Part shown: one piece after another, positions 24,519 through 35,931 of the stretch
Layout of the letters: each line of letters starts with the position of its first letter
Numbering within the stretch: the first letter of the stretch is position 1
Assembly: GCF_000092245.1 (NCBI RefSeq)
Contig: NC_014166.1
Coordinates: forward strand, 868,001-932,000
Source of the DNA: Arcobacter nitrofigilis DSM 7299
Lineage (GTDB): Bacteria > Campylobacterota > Campylobacteria > Campylobacterales > Arcobacteraceae
Length of the DNA: 64,000 nucleotides
Reading direction: 5' to 3'
Position numbers and translations under genes: made by a program
Notes under the pieces: generated by a model
Told to the model about the DNA's origin: nothing
Seen by the model: only the letters and a program-made list of their open reading frames with translations
The model's database searches: none

Positions 24519-25433
24519 TTATTCTAGTTTTATTCCTATTCTATTTGTATTCTCATAATTTGAATAAATTATTTTTGCATTGCCATAGATTAATCTTTGC
24601 GGAACTGTTCCCCAAAATCTCGAATCATTTGAGTGGTCTCTATTATCACCCATCATAAAATATTGATTCTCTGGAACTTTTATTGGAGACATGTTAAATA
24701 GTTGTTGTGGATTAAGTCCATTATCTGTTACACTTGGGTCATTGTGAATACCAGGATGATCTTTTCTATATGGATTTTTTATCCAAAGTTTTCCATCAAA
24801 TTCTGATATTTGTGTTATTGGGTAATTTTTCTTAACATACTCATTACCTTCATGTGGGTGTAGATATAATACTTTATTTTGAAGAGCAACAATATCTCCA
24901 CCAACTGCAACACATCTTTTTACATAATAAACTGTCTCTTCATTTGGATATCTAAATACAACAATATCTCCACGTTTTACAAAATCATAACTTCTTGTAG
25001 CAAGAATAGTGTCATTTCTTATAATAGTTTTTGCCATTGAATTAGCAGGTACACTAAATAGCTTTACTGGTGTATCCAATTTTAATAACATTATTAAGGT
25101 AAATACAATTAAATAATAAACAATAACAAATAATAAGATATATGGTGATGTACTATATTTAGAATTGTTAATATTTTTTTGTTTTTTTATAATTATAATC
25201 GGCTCAATAAATGAGTATAAAAATATTAAAATAAGAAGACTTTCTACAATAATAAATAAATAAAAATTAAAATAAATTAATGCTATATATAAAGAAAGAA
25301 AATGTATGACTAAGAATAAAGGAAAGATAGTGATAGCTTTTTTTATTCGGCCAATATACAAATGACCAGCTCCCATTGCAATTAAATTAAAAATTAGTAA
25401 TTTTAAAATACTCTTTTTTTGAATTTCTTTCAT
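24519..25433 (-). CDS. Signal peptidase I family protein with multi-helix membrane N-terminus
   Basis: 304 residues. The first about 125 residues form several membrane helices, starting with a GAGHLYIGR segment as in TM2-like proteins. The rest is an S26 signal peptidase domain with the catalytic serine in PANSMAKT (about S133), the catalytic lysine in YVKRCVAVGGD (about K169) and the GDNRDHSNDSR box. From RGDIVVFRYP to RFWGTV it is almost identical (three differences by eye) to LepB encoded at 35146, and the DNA is about 95% identical over 376 bases, whereas flanks are unrelated. It is probably an active peptidase of unknown specificity. It faces uvrB across a palindromic element. Confidence 0.85.
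   Translation of the reverse strand: MKEIQKKSILKLLIFNLIAMGAGHLYIGRIKKAITIFPLFLVIHFLSLYIALIYFNFYLFIIVESLLILIFLYSFIEPIIIIKKQKNINNSKYSTSPYILLFVIVYYLIVFTLIMLLKLDTPVKLFSVPANSMAKTIIRNDTILATRSYDFVKRGDIVVFRYPNEETVYYVKRCVAVGGDIVALQNKVLYLHPHEGNEYVKKNYPITQISEFDGKLWIKNPYRKDHPGIHNDPSVTDNGLNPQQLFNMSPIKVPENQYFMMGDNRDHSNDSRFWGTVPQRLIYGNAKIIYSNYENTNRIGIKLE
24603..24978 (-). repeat. 376-base segment duplicated in lepB (copy A)
   Basis: Matches 35305-35680 with no gaps and about 19 base differences by my count, mostly silent. Both lie in the same orientation within signal peptidase genes. Identity ends abruptly on both sides, which points to gene conversion. Confidence 0.85.
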
Positions 25434-25493: not shown

Positions 25494-25817
25494 TTATCCT
25501 ATTAACCTCTGAAACAAAATATCTTCTAAATTTTGTCTTGAATCAACTACTAACAAAATATAAACTATTTGATTCTCTATTTTATAAATGATTCGCCATC
25601 GTTTGTGAATAACTTCTCTGTATTTTGAGATACCAATTTCACTAAGTTCTGGTACTACTCTGTTTCTTTCAGGAAAATAGTGGAGTTTATTACACTCTTC
25701 TTTTATTTCAAAGAATATTTTTTTTGCTGTATTTACACTATCTGTTTTGATATATTCTATTATGTTTAAAAGGTCGTTTTGGGCGATTTCCGTCCATTGT
25801 ACTTCGTAGTTCTTCAT
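25494..25817 (-). CDS. RelE/ParE-family toxin
   Basis: A 107-residue protein of the ParE/RelE fold: WTEIAQNDLLNIIEYI at the start, FPERNRVVPEL in the middle, and the family's YREVIHKRWRIIYKI and VDSRQNLEDIL near the end. Members either poison DNA gyrase (ParE) or cleave mRNA on ribosomes (RelE); DIL-type ends and the antitoxin type favour a ParE/RelE plasmid-stabilisation group without deciding between them. The start codon directly follows the antitoxin stop, so the pair is co-translated. Confidence 0.85.
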   Translation of the reverse strand: MKNYEVQWTEIAQNDLLNIIEYIKTDSVNTAKKIFFEIKEECNKLHYFPERNRVVPELSEIGISKYREVIHKRWRIIYKIENQIVYILLVVDSRQNLEDILFQRLIG

Positions 25818-26090
25818 TTAGTTGAATAGTTTATTTTCTAAATTGTTAAACATTTCATCTTGTTTTAGTAGGTTTTTGTTTTCTATGTCTTTTTCACTTA
25901 GAATTATTAGTTTTAACAAGTTGATTGAATTTTGCATATTTTCATAGCTTTTTATATCTTGCACTACAGCTTTTGCTTCGCCATTTTGCGTAATTATAAC
26001 AGTTCTTTTATTTTCATTGACGCCATTGATTACATCAGCTGTTTTAGATTTTAGAAAACTTATTGGTTTTATATCTTGACTTAAATACAT
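25818..26090 (-). CDS. Phd/YefM-family antitoxin
   Basis: A 90-residue antitoxin: the N-terminal DNA-binding part (IKPISFLKSKTADVINGV, then RTVIITQNGEAKAVVQDI) is the Phd/YefM fold, and the charged C-terminus would wrap the toxin. First gene of the two-gene module; it would neutralise the toxin and repress the operon. A 16-base palindrome at 26144-26159 in its upstream region is a candidate operator. Confidence 0.86.
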   Translation of the reverse strand: MYLSQDIKPISFLKSKTADVINGVNENKRTVIITQNGEAKAVVQDIKSYENMQNSINLLKLIILSEKDIENKNLLKQDEMFNNLENKLFN

Positions 26091-27530: not shown

Positions 27531-27769
27531 ATTTATTCCATAAATTTATTTTAGTATATCATATTTAGATTTATTATATTAAAATTTATGTTTATCATAA
27601 TTAAATCAACAAGTAAAAGTGATTTTAAATATTAATTATTTCTTTTTATAAAACGTTAGCACATATTTGTTTATGCCTTCCATGAAGAGATTTTAGATAA
27701 AGAATTAAAGGCATTTACATTATTAATATTAATTTAAATATTATAATTAACATAAAATTAACAGACATA

Positions 27770-27775
27770 TATAAT
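27770..27775 (+). promoter_or_regulatory. -10 box of the first copper receptor gene
   Basis: TATAAT in the TATATAATAAT stretch, 28 bases before the TTG start. The 273-base gap upstream (27531-27803) is very AT-rich; I see no clear metal-regulator box in it. Confidence 0.45.
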
Positions 27776-27778
27776 AAT

Positions 27779-27801
27779 CTCTCTAAAATAAAAGGAGAGA
27801 G
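27779..27801 (+). promoter_or_regulatory. Possible hairpin hiding the ribosome site of the first copper receptor gene
   Basis: CTCTCT (27779-27784) can pair with AGAGAG (27796-27801), which forms part of the ribosome site GGAGAGAG. The second receptor gene has the same ribosome site but lacks the CTCTCT. A short stem, so tentative. Confidence 0.35.
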
Positions 27802-28379
27802 TATTGAAAAAGTCTATATGTCTGTTAAGTATTGTTGCTTCAACAGTTTTATTAGGGAATGAAGTTGAAGTACCAACAGTAAATGTTGCGGAAAAGATAA
27901 ACACAAAAGTAGTTAAAGATATAAGTGAAGATCAACTGAAATCAGCGGATTTAGCGGAAGCTTTAAGTAAAAATGTACCTTCAATATCAATTGTAAGAAG
28001 AAATGGGATTGCAAATGATATTATTTTGAGAGGACAAAAGAAAGATAATATCAATGTATTAATAGATGATGCAAAGATATATGGAGCTTGTCCAAATAGA
28101 ATGGATCCAGTAACATCACATATATTAACAAATAATGTAGAAAGTGTAGAAGTAATAGAAGGACCATACGATGTTGAGAACTTTGGAACATTAAGTGGGA
28201 AAGTTCAAGTACATACAAAAGAGCCAACAAAAGATTTACATGGAGAAGTTAATTTAAATGCTGGAAGCTTCAATTATAGAAAAGCAAGTGCAACAATAAG
28301 TGGAGGAACAGATAGATTTAAATTATTACTTTCAGCTTCAACTGAAAAAAGTGATCAATATAAAGATGGAAATGGTAAT
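27784..28379 (+). repeat. 596-base direct repeat, copy 1 (5' part of first copper receptor gene)
   Basis: Matches 29787-30382 with two base differences by my count. It runs from 20 bases before the start codon through signal peptide, plug domain and first barrel strands. Beyond it the two genes drop to ordinary paralogue similarity. Confidence 0.92.
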
Positions 28380-29786
28380 GACTTTTATGAACAGCAAGTT
28401 GAAAATGGAATAGCAGCTAAGTCAGATAGAGAGTATTCAAAAGATAATCAAAACCACGAAGCATATACTAAAAAAACACTTCTCTCAAAAGCTATTTTTA
28501 ATATAGATGATAGTTCAGAAGTAAAACTTTCATATACAGCAAACAGAAGTGATAATGTACTATATCCTAATACTCCAATGGATGCTGATTACGATGATTC
28601 AAATATTTATACTCTTGGATATGCAAAAAGAGATTTAGGTAAGTATTCAAAAGAGCTAAATTTAGATTATTATTACTCAGATGTTGACCATCCTATGAGT
28701 ACAAAACTAAGAGATGCTGGAAAAATGATGTATATGACAAATCATATGAAATCATCTATTTGGGGAACAAAACTAAAAAACAGTATGGAACTTTCTGATT
28801 ATTTAGTTACTCTTGGTTTAGATACTAGTGTTAGAAATTGGAGAGGTGAAAGTCATATGACATCAGTTGCAACTGGTGTTGATTCAGCTTTTAATACAAC
28901 ATTAGCATCAACAGATACTACAAATAAAGCAATTTTTGCAAAAGTTGAAAAAAATATTGGAAAATTAGATTTAGAATTTGGTTCTAGATATGACCATACA
29001 AAAATTGATGCGGATTCTAGTGCTAAAACAGATAGAAACTATAATGCCTTAAGTGCAAATGTTTTTGCTACGTATAATGCTGATAAAAGTACTAAATATT
29101 TTGCAGGAATAGGTAAATCTTCAAGAGTTCCTGATGCAAGAGAGCTTTATTATGGAAATACTAATAATGATTTAGAACAAACAAAAAACTATGAAGCTGA
29201 TCTTGGTTTTGAAAAGACTATTGGAAACTTCAATATAAAAACAAAACTATTTTATTCAGTGCTAAAAGATTATATTTATAACAAAACTACAAGTCCTACA
29301 ACTACAAAATTTGAAAATATTGATGCAAAAATTTATGGTATAGAAATTAGTGGATTTTATTATATGAGTGATTTCTTATCTTTAGATTATGGTATGGCAT
29401 ATCAAAGAGGGCAAAAGGATAAAGCACTTGAGGGACAAAGTGATAAAGATTTAGCAGAAATAACACCATTGAAAGCAAATCTTGCATTAAACTATGAGTA
29501 CTCAATACATAAATTGACAGCTGAAATGGTTGCAGTTGATAATTGGAATCACAATGATAGTGATAATGGAGAACAAAAGTTAGGTGGATATGCTATTTTT
29601 AATTTAAAGTATAAAAATAACATAACTAAAAACTTTGAAATAACAGTAGGTGTTGATAATGTATTTGACAAAACTTATGCTTCAACAAATACTTATAATG
29701 ATATCAAATATGTTGGAAATGGTAAAACAGAACTTTTAAATGATCCAGGAAGATATGGATATATTAATTTAAGATATAAATTCTAA
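27804..29786 (+). CDS. TonB-dependent copper receptor, OprC/NosA type (first of tandem pair)
   Basis: Outer-membrane 22-strand receptor, 660 residues. Signal peptide 1-18, a possible TonB box near 22-28, plug domain to about 150, then the barrel ending in aromatic F (INLRYKF). The plug contains ACPNRMDP with C96 and M100, the C-x3-M copper site of OprC, and the barrel has DHPM with H296 and M298, matching the second half (HxM) of that site. This identifies a copper importer of the OprC/NosA family rather than a siderophore receptor. TTG start after GGAGAGAG. The copper likely serves oxidases or nitrous oxide reductase encoded elsewhere; no partner inner-membrane transporter is nearby. Confidence 0.88.
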   Translation: MKKSICLLSIVASTVLLGNEVEVPTVNVAEKINTKVVKDISEDQLKSADLAEALSKNVPSISIVRRNGIANDIILRGQKKDNINVLIDDAKIYGACPNRMDPVTSHILTNNVESVEVIEGPYDVENFGTLSGKVQVHTKEPTKDLHGEVNLNAGSFNYRKASATISGGTDRFKLLLSASTEKSDQYKDGNGNDFYEQQVENGIAAKSDREYSKDNQNHEAYTKKTLLSKAIFNIDDSSEVKLSYTANRSDNVLYPNTPMDADYDDSNIYTLGYAKRDLGKYSKELNLDYYYSDVDHPMSTKLRDAGKMMYMTNHMKSSIWGTKLKNSMELSDYLVTLGLDTSVRNWRGESHMTSVATGVDSAFNTTLASTDTTNKAIFAKVEKNIGKLDLEFGSRYDHTKIDADSSAKTDRNYNALSANVFATYNADKSTKYFAGIGKSSRVPDARELYYGNTNNDLEQTKNYEADLGFEKTIGNFNIKTKLFYSVLKDYIYNKTTSPTTTKFENIDAKIYGIEISGFYYMSDFLSLDYGMAYQRGQKDKALEGQSDKDLAEITPLKANLALNYEYSIHKLTAEMVAVDNWNHNDSDNGEQKLGGYAIFNLKYKNNITKNFEITVGVDNVFDKTYASTNTYNDIKYVGNGKTELLNDPGRYGYINLRYKF

Positions 29787-30382
29787 TAAAATAAAAGGAG
29801 AGAGTATTGAAAAAGTCTATATGTCTGTTAAGTATTGTTGCTTCAACAGTTTTGTTAGGGAATGAAGTTGAAGTACCAACAGTAAATGTTGCGGAAAAGA
29901 TAAACACAAAAGTAGTTAAAGATATAAGTGAAGATCAACTAAAATCAGCGGATTTAGCGGAAGCTTTAAGTAAAAATGTACCTTCAATATCAATTGTAAG
30001 AAGAAATGGGATTGCAAATGATATTATTTTGAGAGGACAAAAGAAAGATAATATCAATGTATTAATAGATGATGCAAAGATATATGGAGCTTGTCCAAAT
30101 AGAATGGATCCAGTAACATCACATATATTAACAAATAATGTAGAAAGTGTAGAAGTAATAGAAGGACCATACGATGTTGAGAACTTTGGAACATTAAGTG
30201 GGAAAGTTCAAGTACATACAAAAGAGCCAACAAAAGATTTACATGGAGAAGTTAATTTAAATGCTGGAAGCTTCAATTATAGAAAAGCAAGTGCAACAAT
30301 AAGTGGAGGAACAGATAGATTTAAATTATTACTTTCAGCTTCAACTGAAAAAAGTGATCAATATAAAGATGGAAATGGTAAT
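29787..30382 (+). repeat. 596-base direct repeat, copy 2 (5' part of second copper receptor gene)
   Basis: Second copy of the segment at 27784-28379, 2003 bases downstream in the same orientation; it includes the ribosome site, start codon, signal peptide and plug. Confidence 0.92.
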
Positions 30383-31780
30383 AATTTTTACGAACAGCAA
30401 GTTGAAAAAGGTGTTTCTTCTACAACACGTTATAAAGATTCTAATGAAAAAGCATATACTAAAAAAACACTCTTATCTAAACTAATTTTTAATATAGATG
30501 ATAGTTCAGAAGTAAAATTATCATATACTGCAAATAGAAGTGATAATGTATTATATCCAGCTGGTGGAATGGATGCTGATTATGATGATTCAAATATCTA
30601 TACTATCGGGTATACAAAAAGAGATTTAGGTAAGTATTCAAAAGAGTTGAATTTAGATTATTATTACTCAGATGTAGATCATCCTATGAGTACAAAATTA
30701 AGAAATCCTACTATGATGTATATGACAAGTCATATGAAAACATCAATTTGGGGAACAAAATTAAAAAATAGTATGGAACTTGCTGATTCAATTTTAACAG
30801 TTGGATTAGATACAAGTGTTAGAAACTGGAGAAGTAATAATTATCAAACATCAATTACAACAGGGAAGATTACACCAACTGCTGATTCTTTTCCATCAAC
30901 AGATACTACAAATAAAGCAATATTCGCAAAATTAGAGAAAGATTTTGGTAAATTAAATTTAGATTTTGGTTCAAGATATGACCATACAAATATTGAGCCA
31001 GATGGTAATACAAAAAATGAAAGAAAATACAATGCACTAAGTGCAAATGTTTTTGCTGTTTATAATCAAGATGAATTTACTAAGTATTTTGCAGGAATTG
31101 GTAAATCTTCTAGAGTTCCTGATGCAAGAGAACTTTATTTTTCAGGAATGGGTTCAAAAGGGAATCAAGATTTAAAACAAACAAAAAACTATGAAGCTGA
31201 TCTTGGTTTTGAAAAAACAATAGGTAATTTTAATATTAAATCAAAACTTTTTTATTCTGTATTAAAAGATTATATTTATAACAATGCAACAAGTAAAAAG
31301 TTTGAAAATGTTGATGCTAAGATTTATGGTGCAGAAATAAGTGGATTCTATTTATTAGGAGATTCATTTTCAGCAGATTATGGAATTGCTTATCAAAGAG
31401 GAAAAAAAGATAAAGCACTAGATGGTCAAACAAATAAAAACTTAGCTGAAATTCCTCCTTTAAAAGCTAATATAGCTTTAAATTATGAGTATTCAATTCA
31501 TAAACTAACAGCAGAAATGGTAGCTGTTGATAACTGGAATAAAATTGATAGTGATAATGGTGAACAGAAGTTAGGCGGATATGCTCTTTTTAATTTAAAA
31601 TATAAAAATAGCATAAGCAAAAATTTTGAAATAACTTTAGGTGTTGATAATGTATTTGATAAAACTTATGCTTCAACAAATACTTATAAAGATATTTCAT
31701 ATACAGTTATAGGTGGAAATCAAATTACTTTTAATGATCCAGGAAGATATGGATATATAAATTTAAGATATAAATTTTAA
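29807..31780 (+). CDS. TonB-dependent copper receptor, OprC/NosA type (second of tandem pair)
   Basis: Tandem paralogue of the previous gene, 657 residues, 20 bases after it and with the same GGAGAGAG-TATTG start. Residues 1-191 are identical to its neighbour, so signal peptide, TonB contact and plug with C96/M100 are the same; the barrel diverges, chiefly in loops (after about 200, around 330-350, 450-460), while the H-x-M copper ligands DHPM (H292/M294) are kept. The two probably take up the same metal, possibly in different ligand complexes or with different exposure to phage and antibodies. Ends with a strong bidirectional terminator. Confidence 0.88.
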   Translation: MKKSICLLSIVASTVLLGNEVEVPTVNVAEKINTKVVKDISEDQLKSADLAEALSKNVPSISIVRRNGIANDIILRGQKKDNINVLIDDAKIYGACPNRMDPVTSHILTNNVESVEVIEGPYDVENFGTLSGKVQVHTKEPTKDLHGEVNLNAGSFNYRKASATISGGTDRFKLLLSASTEKSDQYKDGNGNNFYEQQVEKGVSSTTRYKDSNEKAYTKKTLLSKLIFNIDDSSEVKLSYTANRSDNVLYPAGGMDADYDDSNIYTIGYTKRDLGKYSKELNLDYYYSDVDHPMSTKLRNPTMMYMTSHMKTSIWGTKLKNSMELADSILTVGLDTSVRNWRSNNYQTSITTGKITPTADSFPSTDTTNKAIFAKLEKDFGKLNLDFGSRYDHTNIEPDGNTKNERKYNALSANVFAVYNQDEFTKYFAGIGKSSRVPDARELYFSGMGSKGNQDLKQTKNYEADLGFEKTIGNFNIKSKLFYSVLKDYIYNNATSKKFENVDAKIYGAEISGFYLLGDSFSADYGIAYQRGKKDKALDGQTNKNLAEIPPLKANIALNYEYSIHKLTAEMVAVDNWNKIDSDNGEQKLGGYALFNLKYKNSISKNFEITLGVDNVFDKTYASTNTYKDISYTVIGGNQITFNDPGRYGYINLRYKF

Positions 31781-31783
31781 TAA

Positions 31784-31811
31784 AATAAAAGGAAGATTTC
31801 TTCCTTTTATT
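31784..31811. terminator. Bidirectional terminator after the copper receptor pair
   Basis: AATAAAAGGAAGA and TCTTCCTTTTATT are perfect 13-base inverted repeats with two bases between them, flanked by A/T. They separate the receptor gene (ends 31780) from the convergent HD-domain gene (ends 31807). Confidence 0.8.
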
Positions 31812-35145: not shown

Positions 35146-35931
35146 TTAGTAAATTCCTTTTTCGTGATTGATTTTGATTTCTTTGCCTTCCATATCTTTT
35201 TCTATACTTCCAACTGTTCTAAAAACTCTATTCCATCTAACTTCTTTATTTTTGTCCCATGAAAAATAGATAAACCAAGGAGTTCCTACTATATATTTAT
35301 ACTTAACTGTTCCCCAAAATCTCGAATCATTTGAGTGGTCTCTATTGTCACCCATCATAAAGTATTGATTTTCTGGAACTTTAATAGGAGACATATTAAA
35401 TAGTTGTTGTGGATTAAATCCATTATCTGTAACACTTGGGTCATTGTGAATACCAGGATGATCTTTTCTATATGGATTTTTTATCCAAAGTTTTCCATCA
35501 AATTCTGATATTTGTGTAATTGGATAGTTTTTCTTAACATATTCATTACCTTCATGTGGATGTAAATATAATACTTTGTCTTGAAGAGCAACTATATCTC
35601 CACCAACAGCAACACATCTTTTTACATAATGAACTGTCTCTTCATTTGGATATCTAAATACAACAATATCTCCACGTTTTGGACCATCACCTGTAATTAA
35701 GTGTCCATTATCATGAAACTCTGGAAGTACTTTTACCTCTAGCCAAGGAATTCTTGGAGTTGGAATACCATATGAAAACTTTTTCACAAAAAGCATATCA
35801 CCAATAAGAAGTGTATTTTTCATACTACCACTTGGGATTACAAAGGCTTGTGCAACAAAAAATATGATACTTAAAACAATTACAATTGTACCAGTCCAAG
35901 AACTAGACCATTTATATATTTTTTTTAACAT
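35146..35931 (-). CDS. lepB: Signal peptidase I
   Basis: Inner-membrane endopeptidase that removes signal peptides from Sec-exported proteins. The 261-residue protein has one N-terminal membrane helix (about 13-32), the catalytic serine in IPSGSM (about S36), the catalytic lysine in HYVKRCVAVGGD (about K109), and GDNRDHSNDSR (about 193-203). It sits between folD and rpiB with gaps of zero and one base, an arrangement that marks it as the housekeeping copy. Its central region (DNA 35305-35680) is shared almost exactly with the membrane-embedded relative at 24519. Confidence 0.95.
   Translation of the reverse strand: MLKKIYKWSSSWTGTIVIVLSIIFFVAQAFVIPSGSMKNTLLIGDMLFVKKFSYGIPTPRIPWLEVKVLPEFHDNGHLITGDGPKRGDIVVFRYPNEETVHYVKRCVAVGGDIVALQDKVLYLHPHEGNEYVKKNYPITQISEFDGKLWIKNPYRKDHPGIHNDPSVTDNGFNPQQLFNMSPIKVPENQYFMMGDNRDHSNDSRFWGTVKYKYIVGTPWFIYFSWDKNKEVRWNRVFRTVGSIEKDMEGKEIKINHEKGIY
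35305..35680 (-). repeat. 376-base segment duplicated in the second signal peptidase gene (copy B)
   Basis: Ungapped partner of 24603-24978 (about 19 differences). It covers the catalytic lysine and the conserved C-terminal boxes but not the catalytic serine region, which differs between the two genes. Confidence 0.85.

Follow-up and report, generated by a model that had tools for sequence, protein, structure and literature searches.

Adjacent OprC-like receptors in Arcobacter nitrofigilis with near-identical plugs, divergent barrels and a promoter box in common with copper chaperone genes

Why does one genome keep two adjacent genes for what appears to be the same copper receptor? The question is raised by a 64,000-nt stretch of the marine bacterium Arcobacter nitrofigilis DSM 7299 (NC_014166.1, positions 868,001 to 932,000; the window below), in which two open reading frames (ORFs), here called A and B, follow one another and encode predicted TonB-dependent receptors (Table 1). 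An original prediction, made from the sequence alone, took them for tandem OprC/NosA-type receptors with complete copper sites, and proposed that two copies answer a heavy copper demand, for instance by cytochrome oxidase or nitrous oxide reductase, or handle two forms of copper complex. The explanation that we favour, and as a whole consider likely, is an OprC-type pair with a plug homogenised by gene conversion and a promoter box shared with other genes, supplying copper to a cbb3 oxidase. Our comparison set was 104 genomes, among which A. nitrofigilis is G000 and two sister species are G001 and G002.

Both ORFs carry the predicted C96-x3-M100 in the plug and the histidine and methionine of DHPM in the barrel, and both match PF07715 (plug) and PF00593 (barrel) above cut-off. 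The nearest solved protein by sequence is Pseudomonas aeruginosa OprC (6fok; phmmer E 1.7e-31). The alignment places GACPNRMD opposite GACPNRMD and DHPM opposite DHIM, so that the four copper ligands of OprC, described as C143, M147, H323 and M325 (PMC8610252), are in register. A has only two cysteines, C96 and one at position 6 inside the signal peptide. Receptor matches were found in 76 of the 104 genomes; leaving aside five with fragments only, CxxxM and HxM are kept in all 74 full-length genes of relatives (71 Arcobacteraceae genomes), a count that is partly circular for CxxxM, as genes were chosen by a C..RMD-type pattern, yet no full-length candidate failed CxxxM. The four ligand residues are also invariant across a 45-row alignment that extends to gammaproteobacteria. 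An AlphaFold2 model of B built on that alignment (predicted local distance difference test score 86.9, predicted template modelling score 0.86) has 22 readable barrel strands, and when it was searched against PDB folds, ranks 1–28 were all OprC chains, at a template modelling score of about 0.8. Methionines at 255, 294, 304, 306 and 310 (B numbering) occur in both proteins, where OprC M286 and M339–M343 are their neighbours in alignment position only.

TIGR01778 (TonB-copper, an OprC/NosA equivalog) is the top family match of both proteins. Two figures weigh against a close relationship: identity to OprC over the fold is 21–24%, and A and B reach 209 and 222 bits on TIGR01778, whose curated cut-off is 472. 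The predicted OprC-type identity is thus upheld by the agreement of sequence, fold and conserved ligands, at scores under the curated cut-off; A and B are best called OprC-like, with the OprC fold and site on a distant branch whose orthology to OprC is not proven. Copper binding by both is a well supported though unproven prediction, in which ionic copper would be captured at a CxxxM-HxM site split between plug and barrel, and the two very probably import copper for a respiratory enzyme. A search of the genome with A as query matched A and B only; the TonB-dependent barrel family has ten matches there.

The adjacency of the two copies was rightly predicted. They are not plain duplicates, as plug and leader are near-identical while the barrels differ at about one-fifth of DNA positions. 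Over the initial 576 coding nt A and B differ at two positions, as against roughly one position in five in the rest of the genes; synonymous divergence (dS) is 0.016 in codons 1–192 versus 0.628 in codons 193–660. The longest stretch with two or fewer differences is these 576 nt, while the maximum in 10,000 permutations was 140. The tract starts at the 20-nt leader of each copy and ends at codon 192, within the first long extracellular loop predicted in the model of B. Against the single receptor of G001, dS is even along B (0.202 and 0.176), whereas for A it is 0.202 in the plug and 0.598 in the barrel; A against the single receptor of G002 gives 0.739 and 0.792. Neighbouring genes range from 0.22 to 0.50 between G000 and G001 and from 0.80 to 0.82 between G000 and G002. 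Taken together, these distances indicate that B is the orthologue of the G001 receptor gene and that A is probably that of G002. An antiporter-like relic upstream of A ties that side of the gene to the G002 arrangement; it is the only match to the G002 antiporter gene across G000 and G001. On this comparison the pair is old, the split of A from B predating that of G000 from G001, and the near-identity of leader and plug is the mark of recent gene conversion after the latter split, probably of B onto A.

Whole tandem pairs occur in three of the 104 genomes, G000, G056 and G063; the paired pieces of G095, G045, G052 and G027 are fragments and were not counted. In the G056 and G063 pairs, similar runs slightly exceed the 95% permutation level, so that converted plugs are weakly indicated there. 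Elsewhere in the window, signal peptidase I genes at 24519-25433 and 35146-35931 have in common a 376-bp patch at 94.9% identity and differ in their N-terminal protein parts, likely a second patch of gene conversion.

The loop residues xxGGMD and SFPSTDT mark one copy of each pair, and G001 and G079 have them in their single genes as well. These five genes, which we call b-type, come from three genera and form one clade (100/97) in a tree of amino acids 280–400, although this support is not independent because the motifs that define the group lie inside that segment. The plug tree scatters the same five to three places, with four changes (approximately unbiased test, p-AU 0.047, modest). Nine long-branched rows of 74 were removed before building these two trees. 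In the whole-barrel tree A groups with B and G001 (100/99), other b-type genes being placed elsewhere; a single deep split of the whole barrel into a- and b-types, which we had considered, is unsupported, since that tree unites A, B and G001. The sound statement from these trees is that receptor segments differ in history. Between A and B, differences fall at 60 of 154 positions in predicted extracellular loops versus 40 of 281 in strands, a concentration compatible with the predicted two forms of copper complex, which is possible. We picture an old pair that would keep two barrel types, a and b, with unlike extracellular loops, while the 5' part, comprising leader, plug and first strands, was copied not long ago, with B the probable source and A the recipient; both receptors would then use one plug, with its half of the copper site and its TonB contact, and the outer loops would still differ.

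A promoter was found before A only, in a scan that overall gave no excess of sites over shuffles. The junction between A and B has neither box nor terminator, and A and B are therefore probably one transcript, started from the single promoter before A. In G056 and G063 the spacer between the copies is 118–121 nt long and contains a hairpin together with a repeat that is box-like or exact. In these spacers (L125:5116-5233 and L124:5135-5255) the hairpin is followed by a scrap resembling the 3' end of the convergent HD-domain gene (in G063; less clear in G056), which looks as if a promoter-to-terminator unit got duplicated. Regulation by iron only, named beforehand as an outcome that would count against a copper role, found no support, as the best Fur-like match before A (13 of 19) was not above chance in a crude consensus test (shuffles: median 12, 95% at 14).

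The promoter of A is overlapped by a direct repeat, TTAACA-N5-TTAACA, that recurs before related genes. An exact box precedes 47 of 73 receptor genes, mostly 55–64 nt from the start (shuffle mean 0.005), and a relaxed box precedes 55 (shuffles 0.5); B, having no upstream region of its own, was omitted from the 73. This genome has ten exact boxes (reversed-pattern control, 0), three of them at 56–57 nt from a start: that of receptor A, that of a PCuAC gene and that of an ExbB-ExbD-TonB set. The boxed PCuAC operon encodes PCuAC, a 163-amino-acid protein and Sco1 (PCuAC and Sco1 by Pfam). Directly ahead of the boxed ExbB-ExbD-TonB genes lie an OmpR-type response regulator (G000:C1, about 1854.3–1855.0 kb) and also a kinase, both with domains by Pfam, and from this adjacency of a regulator gene to one box we take the box as a putative site whose reader is probably a response regulator of the OmpR/PhoB type. 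Among relatives the box stands before PCuAC in 20 of 30 cases exactly and in 25 of 30 relaxed (shuffles 0.005 and 0.18), at about the same distance to the start as in receptors; this test used the best 30 loci from PCuAC matches in 34 genomes (E 1e-15). Of the four exact boxes of G055, three precede an OprC-like receptor, PCuAC and a second receptor; the fourth lies 198 nt before an ORF that contains HCIGMCGG and resembles a membrane protein. That second receptor gene, like a further boxed receptor gene in G002 and in G063, lies 3.6–3.7 kb upstream of exbB, and we infer that such a gene and exbB form one operon; in G072 exbB starts ~100 bp past the OprC-like receptor gene. From this pattern we predict a regulon for copper acquisition in the service of cytochrome oxidase, in which the box would link the receptors to PCuAC-x-Sco1 and ExbB-ExbD-TonB.

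Several counts weigh against such a regulon. The exact box is missing before 26 of the 73 receptors, and in 18 the relaxed form is missing too; seven of the ten boxes of A. nitrofigilis are without a clear target (L171, L172, L175, L176, L177, L179 and L180); PCuAC occurs in just 34 of the 104 genomes at the above threshold, 25 of these with a receptor. A box lies within 250 nt before exbB in only four of 30 cases, in part because exbB often sits right behind another gene. Exact boxes showed no excess over the reversed control in G063 (5 vs 7) or G032 (3 vs 5), and two of the three G032 boxes precede siderophore-type receptors (named from reading the ORFs), given which the signal behind the box may not be copper alone. 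The same box stands upstream of a 279-amino-acid flagellin-like gene in A. nitrofigilis (L172) and in G002 (L244). Near the ExbB-ExbD-TonB genes there are a cobalamin-type receptor, a BtuF-like binding protein and an ATPase (L181:799-4212), so the energiser may serve more than copper.

Of the two copper users proposed originally, cytochrome oxidase gains indirect support from two ccoN genes in A. nitrofigilis and from the promoter element common with the PCuAC-x-Sco1 operon. In Campylobacter jejuni, deletion of the PCuAC/Sco operon is described as reducing cbb3 oxidase activity (PMC8267372). The shared box, this phenotype and the two ccoN genes lead us to propose a route from receptor through TonB energiser and PCuAC/Sco1 to the oxidase, with imported copper most likely feeding cbb3 assembly. 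Nitrous oxide reductase fares otherwise: the genome search for nos genes that had been suggested found no NosZ in A. nitrofigilis, and receptor and NosZ (above cut-off) are independent among the 104 genomes (both 30, receptor only 46, NosZ only 12, neither 16; p 0.82). The sister species G001 and G002 carry a single receptor apiece, and in each of them NosZ has a match above cut-off. That of G002 (G002:C5:635499-637292) is interrupted by an internal TAA stop.

Other histories of the pair have to be weighed. A simple recent duplication, retained for the dosage benefit expected under heavy copper demand, fits the identical plugs, leader and ribosome-binding site, and a 13-nt repeat present both in the leader and past B would permit the unequal recombination. 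It is nonetheless highly improbable, given a barrel dS of 0.63 and the assignment of A and B to genes of different sister species; with the second copy an old divergent barrel type, the dosage argument for heavy demand is weak. Barrel divergence contradicts duplication unless the a-type barrel came in afterwards, and this is the main rival: B was recently duplicated via the 13-nt flanking repeats, a-type DNA from a relative later took the place of the first copy's barrel, and plug identity gives the age of the duplication with no conversion. The junction matches the expected product of recombination between leader and downstream repeat, and the plugs of both copies are G001-like. Even so we judge this course unlikely, for the A barrel has diverged to the G002 level, as expected from vertical descent, upstream of A lies the antiporter relic, a trace of the gene order in G002, and no donor nearer than G002 was seen among the 104 genomes.

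Conversion within an old pair is thus the history we retain, and two further rivals concern its box and its loops. The box might be a general TonB or iron/phosphate response element of PhoB-like architecture, the receptors not being copper-controlled. Its seven-four-seven direct repeat presumably resembles Pho-type boxes, and it stands before exbB and other receptors, including the two siderophore-type ones of G032. Its most constant partner is however PCuAC-x-Sco1, a copper chaperone operon without TonB function, and no phosphate-uptake gene was seen beside the ten boxes when the ORFs were read by eye; we regard a general element as improbable. TonB receptors serve as phage and bacteriocin receptors, and the clustering of differences in extracellular loops would also be expected if phages or bacteriocins, not substrate, drove loop divergence. 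Barrel dN/dS (nonsynonymous to synonymous ratio) is 0.13–0.36 by segment, and positive selection is not visible at that scale; this cause seems doubtful, if less so than the previous rivals.

Table 1. Features of the receptor locus (positions in the window)
Feature	Position	Strand	Remarks
Antiporter-like C-terminus relic (HIFVYAFHEEILDKELKAFTLLILI*)	27660..27737	+	Intact gene precedes single receptor of sister species G002
Direct repeat TTAACATAAAATTAACA, 11-nt period	27747..27763	+	Candidate response-regulator box over promoter; conserved before relatives' receptor and PCuAC genes
Promoter-like TTAACA-17-TATAAT for A, probably also B	27747..27775	+	11/12 matches in promoter scan
Leader with ribosome-binding site	27784..27803	+	Same sequence as A-B junction
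Putative converted tract, probable recipient part in A	27784..28379	+	Leader to codon 192; 2 coding differences from B
Receptor A	27804..29786	+	660 amino acids, TTG start; OprC-like TonB-dependent receptor, a-type barrel; C96/M100, H296/M298
A-B junction, 20 nt	29787..29806	+	Ribosome-binding site present; no box, no terminator
Putative converted tract, probable donor part in B	29787..30382	+	Leader to codon 192
Receptor B	29807..31780	+	657 amino acids, TTG start; OprC-like TonB-dependent receptor, b-type barrel; C96/M100, H292/M294
Inverted repeat AAAAGGAAGATTTCTTCCTTTT after B	31781..31810	.	Probable terminator, common to B and convergent HD-domain gene; terminator scan did not call it

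Further upstream in the window, a ParE/RelE-type toxin gene (25494-26090) is preceded by a 90-amino-acid ORF that looks antitoxin-like; a toxin gene of this type adjoins nth in G001 too.

Outer-membrane copper entry is known in few bacteria, and a box common to receptor, energiser and copper chaperones makes a path from import to oxidase open to experiment and suggests a candidate regulator for it. In the mosaic pair, nature provides a clear example of plug and barrel that have evolved separately inside one receptor family. Mosaic history and shared box are the parts worth testing. Joining them, we venture a tentative double proposal, possible but short of probable: that a two-component copper-limitation regulon of Arcobacteraceae, marked by TTAACA-N5-TTAACA, unites receptors, ExbB-ExbD-TonB and PCuAC-x-Sco1 as an import-to-oxidase route, and that the receptors are of a 'one plug, two faces' kind, in which conversion homogenises the plug and selection, by copper sources or phage exposure, keeps two loop types. 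Among open-access papers judged by title, whose silence is weak evidence, we found none on an OprC-type receptor in Epsilonproteobacteria/Campylobacterota, on two-component control of copper TonB-dependent uptake in Arcobacter or on gene conversion in tandem TonB-dependent receptors.

Among known systems, C. jejuni cj0908-0911 (PMC8267372) likewise has PCuAC, a small, membrane-anchored-looking C-x6-C protein and Sco1 in one operon; the Arcobacteraceae PCuAC operon differs in having a promoter box in common with the copper receptor, a link on which the available part of PMC8267372 is silent. The CrtA/BfrG family is described as copper-linked TonB-dependent receptors serving respiratory oxidase (PMC12914433), and by that description, which puts it in a sequence cluster separate from OprC, it is set apart from A and B. 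NosA of Pseudomonas stutzeri groups with OprC by its CxxxM-HxM motif (PMC8610252) and is denitrification-associated there, unlike the receptors of A. nitrofigilis with its NosZ-less genome. Closest is OprC itself (6fok and related; PMC8610252), which has the same TonB-dependent receptor fold, GACPNRMD plug motif, DHxM barrel motif and methionine-rich hairpin following HxM; from it A and B are distinguished by their low identity, their scores under the TIGR01778 cut-off and their tandem arrangement, with two barrel types joined to a plug that bears the mark of conversion.

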